From an uncultured Porphyromonadaceae bacterium (GTDB lineage: Bacteria; Bacteroidota; Bacteroidia; Bacteroidales; Muribaculaceae): 64,000 nucleotides of DNA. The DNA is taken from positions 1-64,000 of the forward strand of contig CANRVB010000004.1 of the NCBI GenBank assembly GCA_947643165.1, read 5' to 3'. This document shows, one piece after another, positions 45,462 through 57,661 of this stretch. The first letter of the stretch is position 1; each line of letters starts with the position of its first letter. Position numbers and translations under genes: made by a program. Below the pieces are notes generated by a model. The model was not told where the DNA came from. It ran no database searches and saw only the letters and a list, made by a program, of their open reading frames with translations.

Positions 45462-45493
45462 ATCATCATTGTCACTTACTGACAGGATAAAAC

Positions 45494-45658
45494 AAAAAAG
45501 GGAGAATCATCATCGCGACGCCTCTCCCTCTAAACCTTTATCTTAATCTAATACTATGAAAAACACACACACAAATGTATATCTTAGTCAGCAAAATAGC
45601 TGATTTTTCCTACTTTTTACCGACAATGTTTGTTGCATCAAGCAGCTGTTCATTGTCT
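45494..45658 (-). ncRNA. Candidate small RNA of about 165 nt, unknown function
   Basis: A near-consensus promoter (TTTG, 21 bases, TATCTTTG) at 45665-45697 on the minus strand should start a transcript near 45658. Three structural elements follow in order: a GACAATG/CATTGTC stem (45651-45657 with 45622-45628), a TCAGC/GCTGA hairpin (45588-45603), a GU-rich single-stranded part, and a GGGAGA/TCTCCC stem (45500-45505 with 45523-45528) followed by six T (45494-45499). No frame is long enough to encode a protein. It is convergent with the fucosidase gene. It does not look like 6S RNA, tmRNA, SRP RNA or RNase P: there is no 5'-3' end pairing or known core. Possible kinship with Bacteroides GibS cannot be judged. 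Confidence 0.75.
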
Positions 45659-45664
45659 ACACTG

Positions 45665-45697
45665 CAAAGATAGCATATTTTATACATATCTTCCAAA
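45665..45697 (-). promoter_or_regulatory. Promoter of the candidate small RNA
   Basis: On the minus strand, TTTG (45694-45697), a 21-base spacer and TATCTTTG (45665-45672) match the Bacteroidetes primary promoter exactly. Downstream is the predicted start near 45658. Confidence 0.8.
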
Positions 45698-53373: not shown

Positions 53374-56300
53374 TTATTCTTTAGCCTCGTTCTCATCCAT
53401 CGGCAGTACCACCACTCCACGGCCTTTCTTACCGTCGATACCTATGGTTACCGGATCTTTGAACTCGACTACCCTTATGCGTTCCGACTCGTATACCGAC
53501 GGCATCTTGTCCAGCAGGTCCACATTATAGTAACCCTGCCCACCGCTCGCGTCAACAGTAAAATATGTTGCGCCCATCGAAGTCAGGTTCTGGAAGAAGT
53601 GTGTACCCTGGCTCGGCTCGACTCTGTATCCGGCCAGCGAAGCCTCCACTATAAGTCTTGCCTGCGATATATTGGGCCATTTCACCGGTATTCCCAACGC
53701 AGTGTCGCTCGAGCCCCATCGTCCAGGGCCTATCAGCACATAACCCTCGTTCTTCTTTATGAAATCACGGTTTATCTTCTCTATCTCACGGGCTATTTCC
53801 GGAGTATACATAGAGTTGAAATTCTCAGGCCTTACATATACTATATGCTTCACGTCGGTTATCGTGCCGTTGCCGAGAGCCTTTTCGCTTCTCAGCAGCA
53901 GATCCTCGTCTTTCATACTCATGAGCTGCTCGTCTACCTGCTCGCTCTTGTTTATGATTGGTCTTATCTGCAGCCAGTATATCCTGCCTTTATGCTCCGC
54001 CTCCGATGACACATCATCTATCATGCCCGCAAATTCTATCTCGATCGGGCGGCGCATTTCGCGCTGTCCGGTCATCAGCATGAATTCCACGGCTTTAGCC
54101 AGCGGAAAAGCATTGTGCTTCAGTATATTGTTGAAAGTCACCACTCTGCGGCCCTTGCCCGTGTCATAGTCTCTCAGCATGTAGCTCTCATGGTCAAAAC
54201 TCGACACCATCAGCTTCAGGGCGCCTGCGTTGGCCGCATCCTGCACCATCACACGTTTCAGGTTGAATGCGTCGTCTACCTTGAAGTCCGAACTGTTGTC
54301 ATTGTTGTTGGTGTCAAGCGCCAGCAACGATGTCTGCGTGTCGCGCAACGCCAGTTCCAGCTCCGAAGTCTGCAACACCGATTCCGGATGAGCCGGCGAG
54401 AACCGGAGGCTCAATCCTCCGTCAACTATATATTTGCCCAGACCTACGGCTACCTCCGCCACACCCTCCTCAGGCTTTTCATCGCCGACAGGGTAGTAGT
54501 TTAGCGATCGGCCCACGCCCGAGAACGATGGGAAATAGCCTATGCCGTTCACATCGCTGCCTATCACCTCCTGTATTATGACAGCCATCTTCTCCTGGTC
54601 TATCACATTCGAGGTCGCGTTCATGTATGCCTTGCTGTCGGCATAAAACACCGACGCATACACACCCTTTATCGCATCGCTCAGTAGCTTCAGCATCTCA
54701 TACTTATCCTCTACATGAGGAATCATATACGTCGAGTAGATACCGGCGAACGGTTGGTAATGGCTGTCCTCAAGCAGCGACGAACTCCTTATCGCAAGCG
54801 GCCTGTCAACCACCTCCAATAGTGCGAAAAACTCTTCTATCAGCCTTTCCGGGAGACGCGCTTTCAGAAAATACGACAGTATCTCCGAGTCCGGCGTGTC
54901 GCTCAGTGCCACCGGATACAGATTGTTGCTGGCCATAAACTCATCAAATATATCCGTACACAGAACCACCGTGCGCGGTATATTGATCGTTATGCCCCCC
55001 GGGAAGTTGTCAAATATCGGGTTCTTTTTTATTATCTGATCTATGAACGCAAGGCCACGGCCTTTTCCACCCAGCGAACCCTCGCCTATTCGGGCAAAAT
55101 TGGAATAATGGTCAAAACGGTCCTTCTTGAACACCGCCACCACTCCGCGGTTCTTCATCTTGCGGTACTTCACTATCAGATCGAATAGCAGACGTCTCAC
55201 TGCCGGCGTTTCATCAAGCGACTTGAAACGGTGCTCCCTCACGACATTCGCTATCGGGAACAGTGCGCGCGAATACAACCACCGTGATATATCATTGCTC
55301 GAAGCATGTCTCAGAAGCGACTCATCCGGTATATCGAATATATGATACTGCAGATCGCGCAGATCGCGTATCCTCAGCAGCTCCTTACCCGTTTGTGGAT
55401 CGGTTATCACAAAATCGCCGAATCCGAATTTCGTATTGATTGCCGCGCCCAGATCTACAGGTAGCTTCTTGCTGTTCTTGTCAAGAAACACACATCCCAT
55501 AGCCTCGGCCTCCGCGCGGTTCTCGCTTTCCGACGACTCTATGATAAATGGCATGTGCGGACGGCGTTCCTTTATGGCATGCGCAAGTTTCAGACCCGCT
55601 TTTGGATCCTTCGCTCCTTCCCTGTGAAACGAGACATCGCTTATCACGCCAAGTATATTCGACCCATAGCGCTCCACAAGCTCCATAGCCTCCTCATAAT
55701 CACGCGCGAGCATAACCTTCGGACGGCCGCGCATTCTCAGCATCTGTTCATGGGCATTCAGCGCCTCGGTCGAAGCCTCGAGACTCTGTTTCAGCAGATT
55801 CTTATACACATGAGGCAGTACCGACGAGTAGAAACGGACCGAATCCTCCACAAGCAATATCATCTGGATACCGACATTGTTTATGTCATTATCCGCATTC
55901 ATCCGGTCCTCCAGAAGCTTGATTATTGCGAGCAGCAGATCTACATTCCCCAGCCATGAGAACACATAATCTACACCACTCATATCCTCATTCTCCAGAC
56001 GCCGTGACACAGCTCTGCTGAACGGTGTCAATACCACTATCGGGAGTTTGGGCCTGAGCGCCTTGATCTCCTTGGCACCGTTCATAGTGTCGCTTACCGC
56101 ATCTACTCCCGGCATCATTATTACCAGATCGAAATGTTTCGATCTGATCTCTTCAAGAGCGGCCGCAGTGTCAGCCACTTGAGTTACTCGTGGTGGAGAG
56201 CTCAGATTCAGGGCTACGTATTCAAAGTACAGCTGTTCCTCGATACGTCCGTCCTCTTCCATCATGAATGCATCATACGGCGATGCCACCAGAAGCACAT

Positions 56301-56376
56301 TGTGAATGCGCTTCTGCATCAGTTCTTGAAATGCAGTATCCTTCAGGATAAGCCGGCTTAGTGCTTCTTCATTCAT
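53374..56376 (-). CDS. Receiver-receiver-PPDK_N chimera (PEP-synthase-like, no phosphohistidine domain)
   Basis: The 1000-residue protein opens with two receiver-like domains. The first (about residues 24-155) keeps the fold (VLLVASPYDAF, FDLVIMMPGVD, LPIVVLTPF) but lacks the phospho-Asp. The second (about 170-305) keeps the acidic pair Glu177-Asp178, a candidate phospho-Asp247 in GVISDVSF and Lys300 in FLDKNS. From about 420 follows the ATP-binding PPDK_N domain of PEP synthase: GGKGRGLAFIDQII, VDRPLAIRSSSLLEDSHYQPFAGIYST (Arg530) and EIEFAGM...GRIYWLQIRP. The His-bearing swivelling domain (TSHxA) and the PEP-binding barrel are absent. A unique C-terminal part (about 840-1000, GYVLIGPGRWGSSDTALGIP) closes it. 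The phosphoryl acceptor is unknown. It heads the minus-strand operon. Confidence 0.88.
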   Translation of the reverse strand: MNEEALSRLILKDTAFQELMQKRIHNVLLVASPYDAFMMEEDGRIEEQLYFEYVALNLSSPPRVTQVADTAAALEEIRSKHFDLVIMMPGVDAVSDTMNGAKEIKALRPKLPIVVLTPFSRAVSRRLENEDMSGVDYVFSWLGNVDLLLAIIKLLEDRMNADNDINNVGIQMILLVEDSVRFYSSVLPHVYKNLLKQSLEASTEALNAHEQMLRMRGRPKVMLARDYEEAMELVERYGSNILGVISDVSFHREGAKDPKAGLKLAHAIKERRPHMPFIIESSESENRAEAEAMGCVFLDKNSKKLPVDLGAAINTKFGFGDFVITDPQTGKELLRIRDLRDLQYHIFDIPDESLLRHASSNDISRWLYSRALFPIANVVREHRFKSLDETPAVRRLLFDLIVKYRKMKNRGVVAVFKKDRFDHYSNFARIGEGSLGGKGRGLAFIDQIIKKNPIFDNFPGGITINIPRTVVLCTDIFDEFMASNNLYPVALSDTPDSEILSYFLKARLPERLIEEFFALLEVVDRPLAIRSSSLLEDSHYQPFAGIYSTYMIPHVEDKYEMLKLLSDAIKGVYASVFYADSKAYMNATSNVIDQEKMAVIIQEVIGSDVNGIGYFPSFSGVGRSLNYYPVGDEKPEEGVAEVAVGLGKYIVDGGLSLRFSPAHPESVLQTSELELALRDTQTSLLALDTNNNDNSSDFKVDDAFNLKRVMVQDAANAGALKLMVSSFDHESYMLRDYDTGKGRRVVTFNNILKHNAFPLAKAVEFMLMTGQREMRRPIEIEFAGMIDDVSSEAEHKGRIYWLQIRPIINKSEQVDEQLMSMKDEDLLLRSEKALGNGTITDVKHIVYVRPENFNSMYTPEIAREIEKINRDFIKKNEGYVLIGPGRWGSSDTALGIPVKWPNISQARLIVEASLAGYRVEPSQGTHFFQNLTSMGATYFTVDASGGQGYYNVDLLDKMPSVYESERIRVVEFKDPVTIGIDGKKGRGVVVLPMDENEAKE

Positions 56377-56524
56377 CGTTTTGTCCGATTTCGGCCTGAA
56401 AAGAGTCTGTTATTGATAGATTGACAATTAAAATGAGTACAAATATACGAAGTATATTCGACGAAAAAAATAGCGGATGTCGCCTTTTAGGCGGATCGCG
56501 GTGCGAAAGCCAATTTTATTGAGT

Positions 56525-56557
56525 CAAATATACGAATAAGTGAGAGCAGTGTCAAAT
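56525..56557 (-). promoter_or_regulatory. Promoter copy 1 of a duplicated 33-base repeat
   Basis: On the minus strand this copy reads TTTG (56553-56556), a 20-base spacer and TATATTTG (56525-56532), a perfect consensus match. It lies about 150 bases upstream of the receiver/PPDK_N start at 56376. Confidence 0.75.
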
Positions 56558-56597
56558 TTATTTGAACATTGCCGAACGGAAGTATATTGCATGTATG

Positions 56598-56630
56598 CAA
56601 ATATACGAATAAGTGAGGGCAGTGTCAAAT
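56598..56630 (-). promoter_or_regulatory. Promoter copy 2 of a duplicated 33-base repeat
   Basis: TTTG (56626-56629), a 20-base spacer and TATATTTG (56598-56605) repeat copy 1 with one changed base in the spacer (56618). It lies 73 bases upstream of copy 1 and 33 bases from the trxB terminator stem-loop. Confidence 0.75.
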
Positions 56631-56662
56631 AAATCTGACACTATCTACCGCAATTTTACCAC

Positions 56663-56692
56663 AAAAAACTCCGGGCAGAATACCACCCGGAG
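56663..56692 (-). terminator. Terminator of trxB
   Basis: CTCCGGG/CCCGGAG (56669-56675 with 56686-56692) forms a 7-base GC-rich stem with a 10-base loop; on the minus strand six T follow (56663-56668). It is 25 bases after the trxB stop. Confidence 0.85.
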
Positions 56693-56716
56693 CCTTTTGT
56701 TCATGTCATGTTCTCT

Positions 56717-57661
56717 TTATACCGCTCCTTCCATCAGGAATCGCTCTACATCCAGAGCCGCTCTACAACCGCTTCCTGCAGCTGTGATAGCCTGACGGTA
56801 GTGCGGATCCGCAACATCTCCTGCGGCAAAAACACCTGGAATATTGGTTGCTGTCGACGGCAACGCTGTCACGATATAGCCGGCCTCATCCGTAGTGATT
56901 TTTCCCTTGAAGATATCCGTGTTGGGTCTGTGGCCTATTGCAAGGAAGAAACCGTCTATAGGTAGGTCATAGCTCCGCTCCTCGGGTGTTCCCTTGTGCT
57001 CTACAAGGTGCGCACCCTCAAGATACTCCTCGCCATATAGTCCGGCTGTGTTCGTATTGAACAGCACCGTGATGTTCGGATTCGAAAGCACTCGCTGCTG
57101 CATTACCTTGCTGGCACGGAGATGATCCTTGCGCACTATCAGAAATACATTCGATGCGATATTGCTTAGATACAAAGCCTCCTCACATGCTGTATCGCCA
57201 CCGCCTACTACAGCCACACGTCTCTTCCTGTAGAAGAAGCCGTCACATGTAGCGCATGCCGACACACCCAGACCTTGATACTTCTTCTCATCCGGAAGTC
57301 CCAGATAACGGGCCGATGCTCCGGTCGATATTATTACTGTATCGGCAATGATTTCCGCTCCGTCCGACGCCTTGGCATGAAACGGACGGCTGTCAAGATC
57401 TATCTCTGTGATCACGCCCGTGCGGATATCTGCTCCAAATCTCTTCGCTTGGGCACGCATATCCTCCATCATGTTCGGACCGGTCACACCGGCCGGATAG
57501 CCGGGAAAATTCTCCACCTCCGTAGTGGTGGTAAGCTGTCCGCCGGGCTGATGTCCTTCATAAAGCAGCGGACCGAGATTGGCTCTCGATGAATATATTG
57601 CTGCGGTAAATCCCGCAGGTCCTGAGCCTATTATCAGGCATCGTGTCTTTATTGGTTCCAT
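56717..57661 (-). CDS. trxB: Thioredoxin-disulfide reductase
   Basis: TrxB passes electrons from NADPH via FAD to thioredoxin. The 314-residue protein shows the FAD motif GSGPAG (12-17), GHQPGGQLTTTTEVENFPGYP, the redox pair CATC (Cys136, Cys139) in the order typical of low-molecular-weight TrxB, the NADPH motif GGGDTACEEA from 153, and the C-terminal FAD block PGVFAAGDVADPHYRQAITAAGSGCRAALD. Complete and of normal length. It is followed by a clear terminator. Confidence 0.96.
   Translation of the reverse strand: MEPIKTRCLIIGSGPAGFTAAIYSSRANLGPLLYEGHQPGGQLTTTTEVENFPGYPAGVTGPNMMEDMRAQAKRFGADIRTGVITEIDLDSRPFHAKASDGAEIIADTVIISTGASARYLGLPDEKKYQGLGVSACATCDGFFYRKRRVAVVGGGDTACEEALYLSNIASNVFLIVRKDHLRASKVMQQRVLSNPNITVLFNTNTAGLYGEEYLEGAHLVEHKGTPEERSYDLPIDGFFLAIGHRPNTDIFKGKITTDEAGYIVTALPSTATNIPGVFAAGDVADPHYRQAITAAGSGCRAALDVERFLMEGAV

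Follow-up and report, generated by a model that had tools for sequence, protein, structure and literature searches.

A candidate CAUAG-seed small RNA gene of Muribaculaceae related to FopS and GibS, with complementary sites in rodent-gut Microviridae

A short RNA gene on the minus strand

The window (the whole analysed stretch of 64,000 nucleotides) very probably contains a gene for a short trans-acting small RNA (sRNA) of the A-type (CAUAG-seed) branch of the FopS/GibS group, a branch that no genome of the genus carries more than once. In silico analysis showed a -7 box at a fixed spacing, a near-invariant seed, a covarying terminator and a wide presence in the family. FopS/GibS-type RNA has so far been characterised in Bacteroides, and here it is found in a related gut bacterium. 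The A-type RNA would carry the FopS/GibS mode of control into Muribaculaceae, a dominant family of the mouse gut. By analogy with experiments on FopS and GibS in B. thetaiotaomicron, the 5' end of this RNA would pair with mRNA across or beside the AUG and block the initiation of translation. The features of the locus are as follows.

45491..45566, minus strand: A-type FopS/GibS-related sRNA, conserved core of 76 nt (cmscan FopS match, alignments of relatives, alignment A1)
45534..45566, minus strand: 5' seed of 33 nt, R1 plus the A-type-specific AAGATAAAGG (complementary to AUG-centred start regions; invariant in A1)
45497..45531, minus strand: intrinsic terminator hairpin with a GNGA-type loop (covariation)
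45494..45499, minus strand: terminator T run, six T (sequence)
45572..45579, minus strand: inner promoter P2, -7 box TACATTTG (predicted start about 45566; TWnnTTTG spacing in A-type copies)
45665..45697, minus strand: outer promoter P1 (exact consensus; outside the alignments of all 25 relatives)
45567..45660, minus strand: possible 5' extension if P1 is used, holding the two stems described initially (covers part of the seed in the predicted structure)

The gene (45566-45491, minus) consists of the seed GUGUUUUUCAUAGUAUUAGAUUAAGAUAAAGGU, the hairpin and six T, and the 5' end expected from P2 for the A-type RNA is GUGUUUUUC. Alignment A1 includes 58 A-type copies chosen from 106 distinct ones, and the first 33 columns, i.e., the seed, do not vary in any of the 58. 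This invariance is partly circular, since most of the copies came from an exact 29-mer scan (at least 117 stretches). The copies from the genus were found by BLAST and share the same seed, with two exceptions that were left out of A1: L021, near a contig end, diverges after TTTTTCATAGTATTAGAT, and L020 is broken by a contig end. In the terminator hairpin, two-sided changes occur in 11 of 12 pairs and 96.7% of cells are paired. The covariation score is 0.626 against 0.230 in shuffled alignments, and the number of cells changed on both sides is 137 against 35.5. The seed of the 76-nt form is predicted to be largely, but not fully, single-stranded (mean unpaired probability 0.63 over the whole seed).

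Judged from the sequence, the sRNA gene is real, but its limits differ from those drawn in the initial annotation. Two of the elements described there were found again: the terminator with six T (hairpin 45531-45497, T run 45499-45494) and the lack of a protein frame, as the list of open reading frames has no minus-strand frame of 60 aa or more across the stretch.

Relation to FopS and GibS

At the gathering threshold, Rfam gave no match in the window, which agrees with the initial remark that the RNA could not be matched to a known family. Below the threshold this remark is only partly right. In E-value mode, cmscan detected FopS (RF04319) with 41.7 bits (E 7e-5; gathering cut-off of 56 not reached) and GibS (RF04182) with 35.8 bits (cut-off of 115 not reached). 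We scanned 20 loci of both seed types, A-type (CAUAG) and G-type (CAUGG), with the Rfam models. In 9 of 10 sources, G-type copies exceed the FopS cut-off, with 58.8-80 bits; the own-genome copy L031 has 58.8 bits. Eight other A-type copies from the family scored 41.8-56.1 bits with FopS, one of them just over the cut-off, and with FopS the window copy scores lowest of all those scanned. Two other families of the order have a bridging form, in which CAUAG is followed by AAGAUUAAGG; both loci of it that were scanned (L305, L307) pass FopS. The second G-type locus of the own genome (L033, G000:C39:7410), which is its third seed locus, has no Rfam match. There is no T-run terminator right after its seed; a strong hairpin is seen by eye further on, and this locus may encode a longer RNA.

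FopS of B. thetaiotaomicron, as described in PMC11697453, and the A-type RNA are alike in their short length, in the 5' R1 seed followed by one terminator hairpin, in the sigma-ABfr-type -7 box and in the presence of sister copies in the same genome. R1 is identical in both, and the 3' extension of the seed differs (CAUAG...AAGAUAAAGG in the A-type, UUUAAGGUUAA in FopS). FopS, as described there, has a canonical sigma-ABfr promoter at its 5' end, whereas the window copy has the -7 box without the -33 TTG. FopS is multicopy; the own genome here has three seed-bearing loci, one of which is A-type. Unlike FopS, the A-type RNA is never found more than once in a genome of the genus, lies below the Rfam cut-off and has no pooled preference for susC, and no RRM_1 protein was found in the family of its host.

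With GibS of B. thetaiotaomicron (RF04182), as presented in PMC7366714, the A-type RNA shares the first 21 bases, which are identical to the GibS consensus, AAGAU shortly after them and the single copy. Together with the covarying terminator, this identity supports a probable trans-acting sRNA with GibS as the comparison, as had been proposed initially. However, GibS is about 145 nt long and has an R2 seed and two middle hairpins, while in the 76-nt A-type RNA the terminator comes straight after the seed, with neither R2 nor middle hairpins. The GibS promoter is PM2, and the A-type has a TAnnTTTG-type -7 box at fixed spacing. GibS responds to GlcNAc, by which it is induced, and it represses BT_0771 and BT_3893. 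Because the formal tests for FopS and GibS both fail, the RNA appears to be best called an A-type relative of FopS/GibS and filed as a member of neither. Literature searches found no paper on a Muribaculaceae small RNA with start sites and, judged by title, nothing related on noncoding RNA of Muribaculum intestinale. A GibS-like stretch was seen by eye in a B. finegoldii plasmid (L394, NZ_OY725923.1).

Sites complementary to the seed in Microviridae

About a dozen Microviridae from the rodent gut have sites, at or close to translation starts, that are complementary to the A-type seed and predicted to pair with it. The sites belong to capsid, small lipoprotein-like and leader mini-ORF genes, and some of them are tandem (L391, L392, L397-L403, L446-L455). 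The seed was compared by BLAST with 50,697 phage records, and microviruses were counted by organism name as raw counts, not scaled to their share of the collection. Three overlapping queries, which returned largely the same records, gave at least 23 of 127, 15 of 86 and 18 of 100 records. In each of the 14 distinct microviruses listed, the match is on the record's minus strand, and in the 13 records examined the annotated gene direction makes the mRNA complementary to the seed.

The longest pairing was found in Sigmofec virus 4104, where an unbroken run of 32 pairs, G-U pairs included, spans the AUG of a 62-aa gene. In bajarodmic 144, bajarodmic 15 and Peromfec RodF8_12, 18-22 pairs end 2-5 bases before the annotated AUG of the capsid gene, and bajarodmic 15 has two tandem sites there. 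A like site precedes an in-frame upstream start of the capsid gene in bajarodmic 777 (by eye). The capsid names are those of the depositors; of two capsid genes tested, one exceeded the Phage_F cut-off and one fell just short of it. Tandem sites lie ahead of a 43-aa gene in bajarodmic 234, and 21 pairs lie ahead of a 61-aa gene in Dipodfec UA06Rod_5. Sites at leader mini-ORFs were seen by eye in bajarodmic 116, bajarodmic 645 and Peromfec RodF5_6. The weaker cases are Dipodfec RodF1_76, whose long site has no AUG, bajarodmic 536, which pairs only with gaps, and the capybara site, with an E-value of 8.

Duplex energies with the consensus A-type seed range from -26 to -46 kcal/mol (z from -4.6 to -11 against shuffled seeds). 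They are not independent evidence, because the sites were picked for matching; the controls are independent. The G-type seed pairs less well in 13 of 13 cases, nearly equally in the capybara case. BLAST with the reversed seed gave no microviruses by name in 25 records, and with the G-type seed none by name in 35 records, six of which are unnamed phages. Among shuffled seeds, one search gave 2 microviruses in 12 records, on the plus strand inside a replication gene, and further ones gave none named in 23 records (some unnamed) and none in 13. A 16-nt core of the site was also sought in 2.68 Mb of host DNA (228 loci, some of which overlap); with two mismatches allowed, it occurs once outside sRNA genes, and not at a start. 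This is chance level, since six shuffled cores occur 0-3 times.

The rodent-gut Microviridae, which are single-stranded DNA phages, may have put the starts of their own genes, that of the major capsid protein among them, under the host A-type RNA, through seed-complementary sites of about 17-32 pairs, sometimes in tandem; we put this forward tentatively, as a serious possibility short of probable. With the same reserve, the RNA might repress the capsid gene, the phage mRNA might soak up the RNA, or the RNA might be an innate silencer directed against phages. It is also quite conceivable that the sites arose by coincidence or serve as a signal within the phage, such as a translation enhancer, unrelated to the host RNA. 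Most of the records matched are of other phages, which match weakly and include 47-48 Pseudomonas phages; E-values of single hits run from 3e-5 to 8, and some of the microviruses are related to each other. The IMG/VR scans also returned no such sites: variants of the microvirus site gave 0 and 2 stretches, and of 42 stretches from a 17-mer scan 39 were one unrelated coding sequence, so that these scans do not show the element in microviruses. Against coincidence stands the result of the control searches, in which named microviruses were few or absent. The best sites also stay paired by way of G-U, a number of them as far as the GUGUG end; tandem sites occur, and the majority are at starts.

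The complementarity between seed and phage suggests a testable link from a host RNA to the production of phage proteins. If the sites are real targets, phage structural genes would here be controlled by a host small RNA, and repression of the capsid by host RNA would amount to a carrier or temperate state in which the phage has no repressor. By title, among the matches listed, the literature holds no report of such a coupling; a search for Microviridae, sRNA and Bacteroidetes gave one infant-stool study, by title.

Phages also carry FopS-like genes. In Bacteroides phage BX-TP2 (L393, PQ571285.1), an apparently complete one was seen by eye, with the same seed, a preceding -7 box, a hairpin and a T run. 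Such genes have the FopS body (UUUAAGGUUAA) and are carried by the phage, unlike the host-borne A-type. The microvirus sites are the reverse of this case: they are complementary to the seed, and no sRNA body is seen. A 19-mer scan of IMG/VR gave 63 stretches, including phage-borne sRNA-like genes. In 16 of the 63 (L152, L163, L167 and 13 more), the start region of a 114-aa gene (MKNLIIALFIT...) contains an exact 19-nt anti-seed.

Promoters and form of the RNA

The full Bacteroidetes promoter noted initially is present as P1 (TTTG-N21-TATCTTTG, 45697-45665, minus). It is the sole match in the window to TTTG-N19..23-TATCTTTG, against an average of 0.05 in shuffled windows. A looser form (N17..23, TAnnTTTG) occurs nine times in the window, with 0.92 expected. 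Two near-identical 32-base promoter-like matches lie 73 bases apart at 56525-56556 and 56598-56629 (minus), and TRF found no tandem array in 56300-56900.

P1 is not part of what is conserved. Among the 34 genomes of the genus, 26, including the own genome of the window, match at E <= 1e-12. The alignments of the 25 relatives all start at position 115 or later of the 212-base query, which corresponds to 45586 or downstream. P1 and both upstream stems are in none of them. The initial annotation had drawn a unit of about 165 bases with a start near 45658 and two stems, and had suggested checking promoter and stems for conservation in relatives. Since the alignments begin at 45586 or downstream, conservation does not support that start site, length or stems; the inner core of 76 nt is what the 25 relatives share. 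The conserved unit starts at the inner -7 box TACATTTG (45579-45572). A TWnnTTTG box at the same spacing to the seed is present in 101 of the 121 A-type copies with full upstream sequence, and the -33 TTG in 95 of 124. The window copy retains the GTGTG start, the -7 box and its spacing; the -33 TTG is absent from it.

One could suppose that the functional RNA is a form of 165-168 nt made from P1, specific to this lineage and extended at the 5' end, in which part of the seed is hidden until a signal opens it. P1 matches the consensus exactly and P2 lacks the -33 TTG. The 174-nt stretch 45662-45489 folds better than its shuffles (z -2.94), and the first 10 bases of the seed are predicted to be more paired in the long form (unpaired probability 0.41 at 168 nt, against 0.62 at 76 nt). 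However, with P1 and the stems in 0 of 25 relatives' alignments, and with the -7 box, spacing and GTGTG start kept in the window copy, we consider this rather unlikely. For the preferred short RNA, the window gene would lie away from its usual site next to a Sua5 gene, keeping the -7 box, lacking the -33 TTG and the GTTAA repeats described below, and standing behind an extra consensus promoter. With this altered set-up, the 76-nt and/or the 168-nt form may be made.

Further upstream, GTTAA occurs 41-80 bases ahead of the seed in 85 of 121 A-type copies, against a mean of 11.8 and a maximum of 22 in 200 shuffled runs, and also in 22 of 27 G-type copies. At control sites in a sample of the own genome, it was found at 4 of 90 generic promoter-like and 4 of 30 AT-rich sites. 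The repeats sit about 60 and 70 bases ahead of the seed, and the commonest spacing of TTAA pairs is 10 or 11 bases. Of the A-type copies, 27 of 121 have a strict double GTTAA, as have 15 of the 27 G-type copies. The repeats look like a direct-repeat operator; the FopS paper mentions an unidentified regulator (PMC11697453). Upstream of the window copy, GTTAA repeats were not found. A palindrome-like ATGTT-N-AACAT or a near variant overlaps the -33 region of several copies from other families (L305, L309, L310, L312 and L025; by eye); a pattern search matched 4 of 27 G-type copies and none of 124 A-type ones.

Copy number and genomic neighbourhood

Exactly one A-type copy was found in 28 of the 34 genomes of the genus and none in 6, and G-type copies number 0 to 5 per genome; many of these assemblies are incomplete. 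The seed pattern occurs in 33 of 34 genomes, and the reversed-pattern control in none. Of the 28 A-type loci examined, two are truncated directly behind the gene; 14 have a Sua5/YrdC-like gene just downstream on the same strand, and the one tested is Pfam PF01300. The own genome of the window has no seed in the 400 bases upstream of its Sua5 gene, so the A-type gene has probably moved in this lineage. No fucosidase homologue lies within about 1.5 kb of the other 27 A-type loci, and the start region of the fucosidase gene does not pair with the seed (z +0.15). Given also the Sua5 neighbour at half of the loci, the fucosidase neighbour of the window copy is probably incidental.

Because it has the lowest score and its inner promoter lacks the -33 TTG, the window copy could be decaying or transcribed from P1 only. 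That it is a relocated relic which has lost its expression or use would also fit the missing GTTAA repeats. Nevertheless, all 33 seed bases, the -7 box and the terminator are intact, and no second A-type copy was found in the own genome (assembly 88.5% complete), which makes a relic improbable.

Host targets

We compared the pairing of the seeds with susC starts and with the starts of other genes, using one start per gene by our own start-choice rule, z-scores against shuffled seeds and part of each genome. In the own genome, 15 susC genes are over the family cut-off; 13 entered a first test with many candidate starts and 12 the later ones. The first test was noisy (A-type p 0.08, own G-type p 0.009) and was superseded by the test with one start per gene. 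With the G-type seed, the 12 susC starts of the own genome pair better than 346 others (p 0.006; 8e-5 for the own G-type copy), and so do 8 susC starts against 822 others in three relatives (p 0.006). Pooled, 20 susC genes against 1168 others give p 0.0002. Against signal-peptide-like genes, p is 0.0035 pooled (20 and 303 genes) and 0.09 in the relatives alone (7 and 221). The A-type seed has no pooled preference for susC (p 0.12, 20 against 1168; p 0.18 against signal-peptide-like genes), with p 0.34 in the own genome and 0.07 in the relatives. In the relative G007 (4 susC genes), p is 0.02 for the G-type and 0.32 for the A-type.

These data divide the role in glycan use that was initially suggested: they favour it for the sister G-type seed and not for the A-type. 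Two seed types of one genome can thus be told apart, one of which fits susC starts and the other, pooled, does not. This pooled contrast resembles the published difference between FopS-10, which binds a susC mRNA, and GibS, which does not (PMC11697453). We find it hard to believe that the RNA is FopS proper and represses the translation of susC/PUL genes as FopS-10 does: it shares the R1 seed and the architecture, and in the relative G002 the A-type seed pairs better with 3 susC starts than with those of 235 other genes (p 0.008; G-type 0.12), but the pooled A-type p of 0.12 stands against 0.0002 for the G-type and the Rfam cut-off was missed. The targets of the A-type RNA would rather differ from the susC targets of its G-type sisters; the best complementary sites are in phage mRNAs.

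Near-perfect anti-seed sites in 11 genomes are not enriched (63 non-sRNA sites, 64 in the control). At least three of the best of these host sites (L316, L317, L319) were rejected, as they look like sRNA genes on the other strand; in these three relatives, variant sRNA-like seeds CATAGGATTAGATTTTTAAGGTT are read from the complementary strand. Target scoring combined over orthologues, which covered 18 clusters only, gave no clear A-type candidate (best -2.02); for the G-type, an MFS transporter gene leads (-4.19). Two long open reading frames (L318:1210-2172 and L322:2-2161) have start regions complementary to the seed, including AAAAACAC; neither gave anything over the cut-off in PHROGs or Pfam.

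The partner protein RbpB

RbpB of B. thetaiotaomicron is an RRM protein that binds FopS and lifts repression (PMC11697453). A search for RRM_1 gave 0 of 34 genomes in the genus and 0 of 197 in the family, the latter drawn evenly from a larger group; the Bacteroides ihuae control was positive. Because no RRM_1 protein is detectable in the family, the A-type RNA would work without RbpB, and the family, where no RbpB-type protein was found, offers a natural test of whether RbpB is needed. Across the order, we searched 198 genomes for FopS-type RNA with stricter filters, at which weak matches are lost, and found it in 40. RRM_1 is present in 25 of these 40 and in 115 of the 158 RNA-negative genomes, and a link between FopS-type RNA and the presence of RRM across the order was rejected (Fisher p 0.24). 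The other 15 of the 40 RNA-bearing genomes have no RRM_1, so the RNA family persists without this type of protein.
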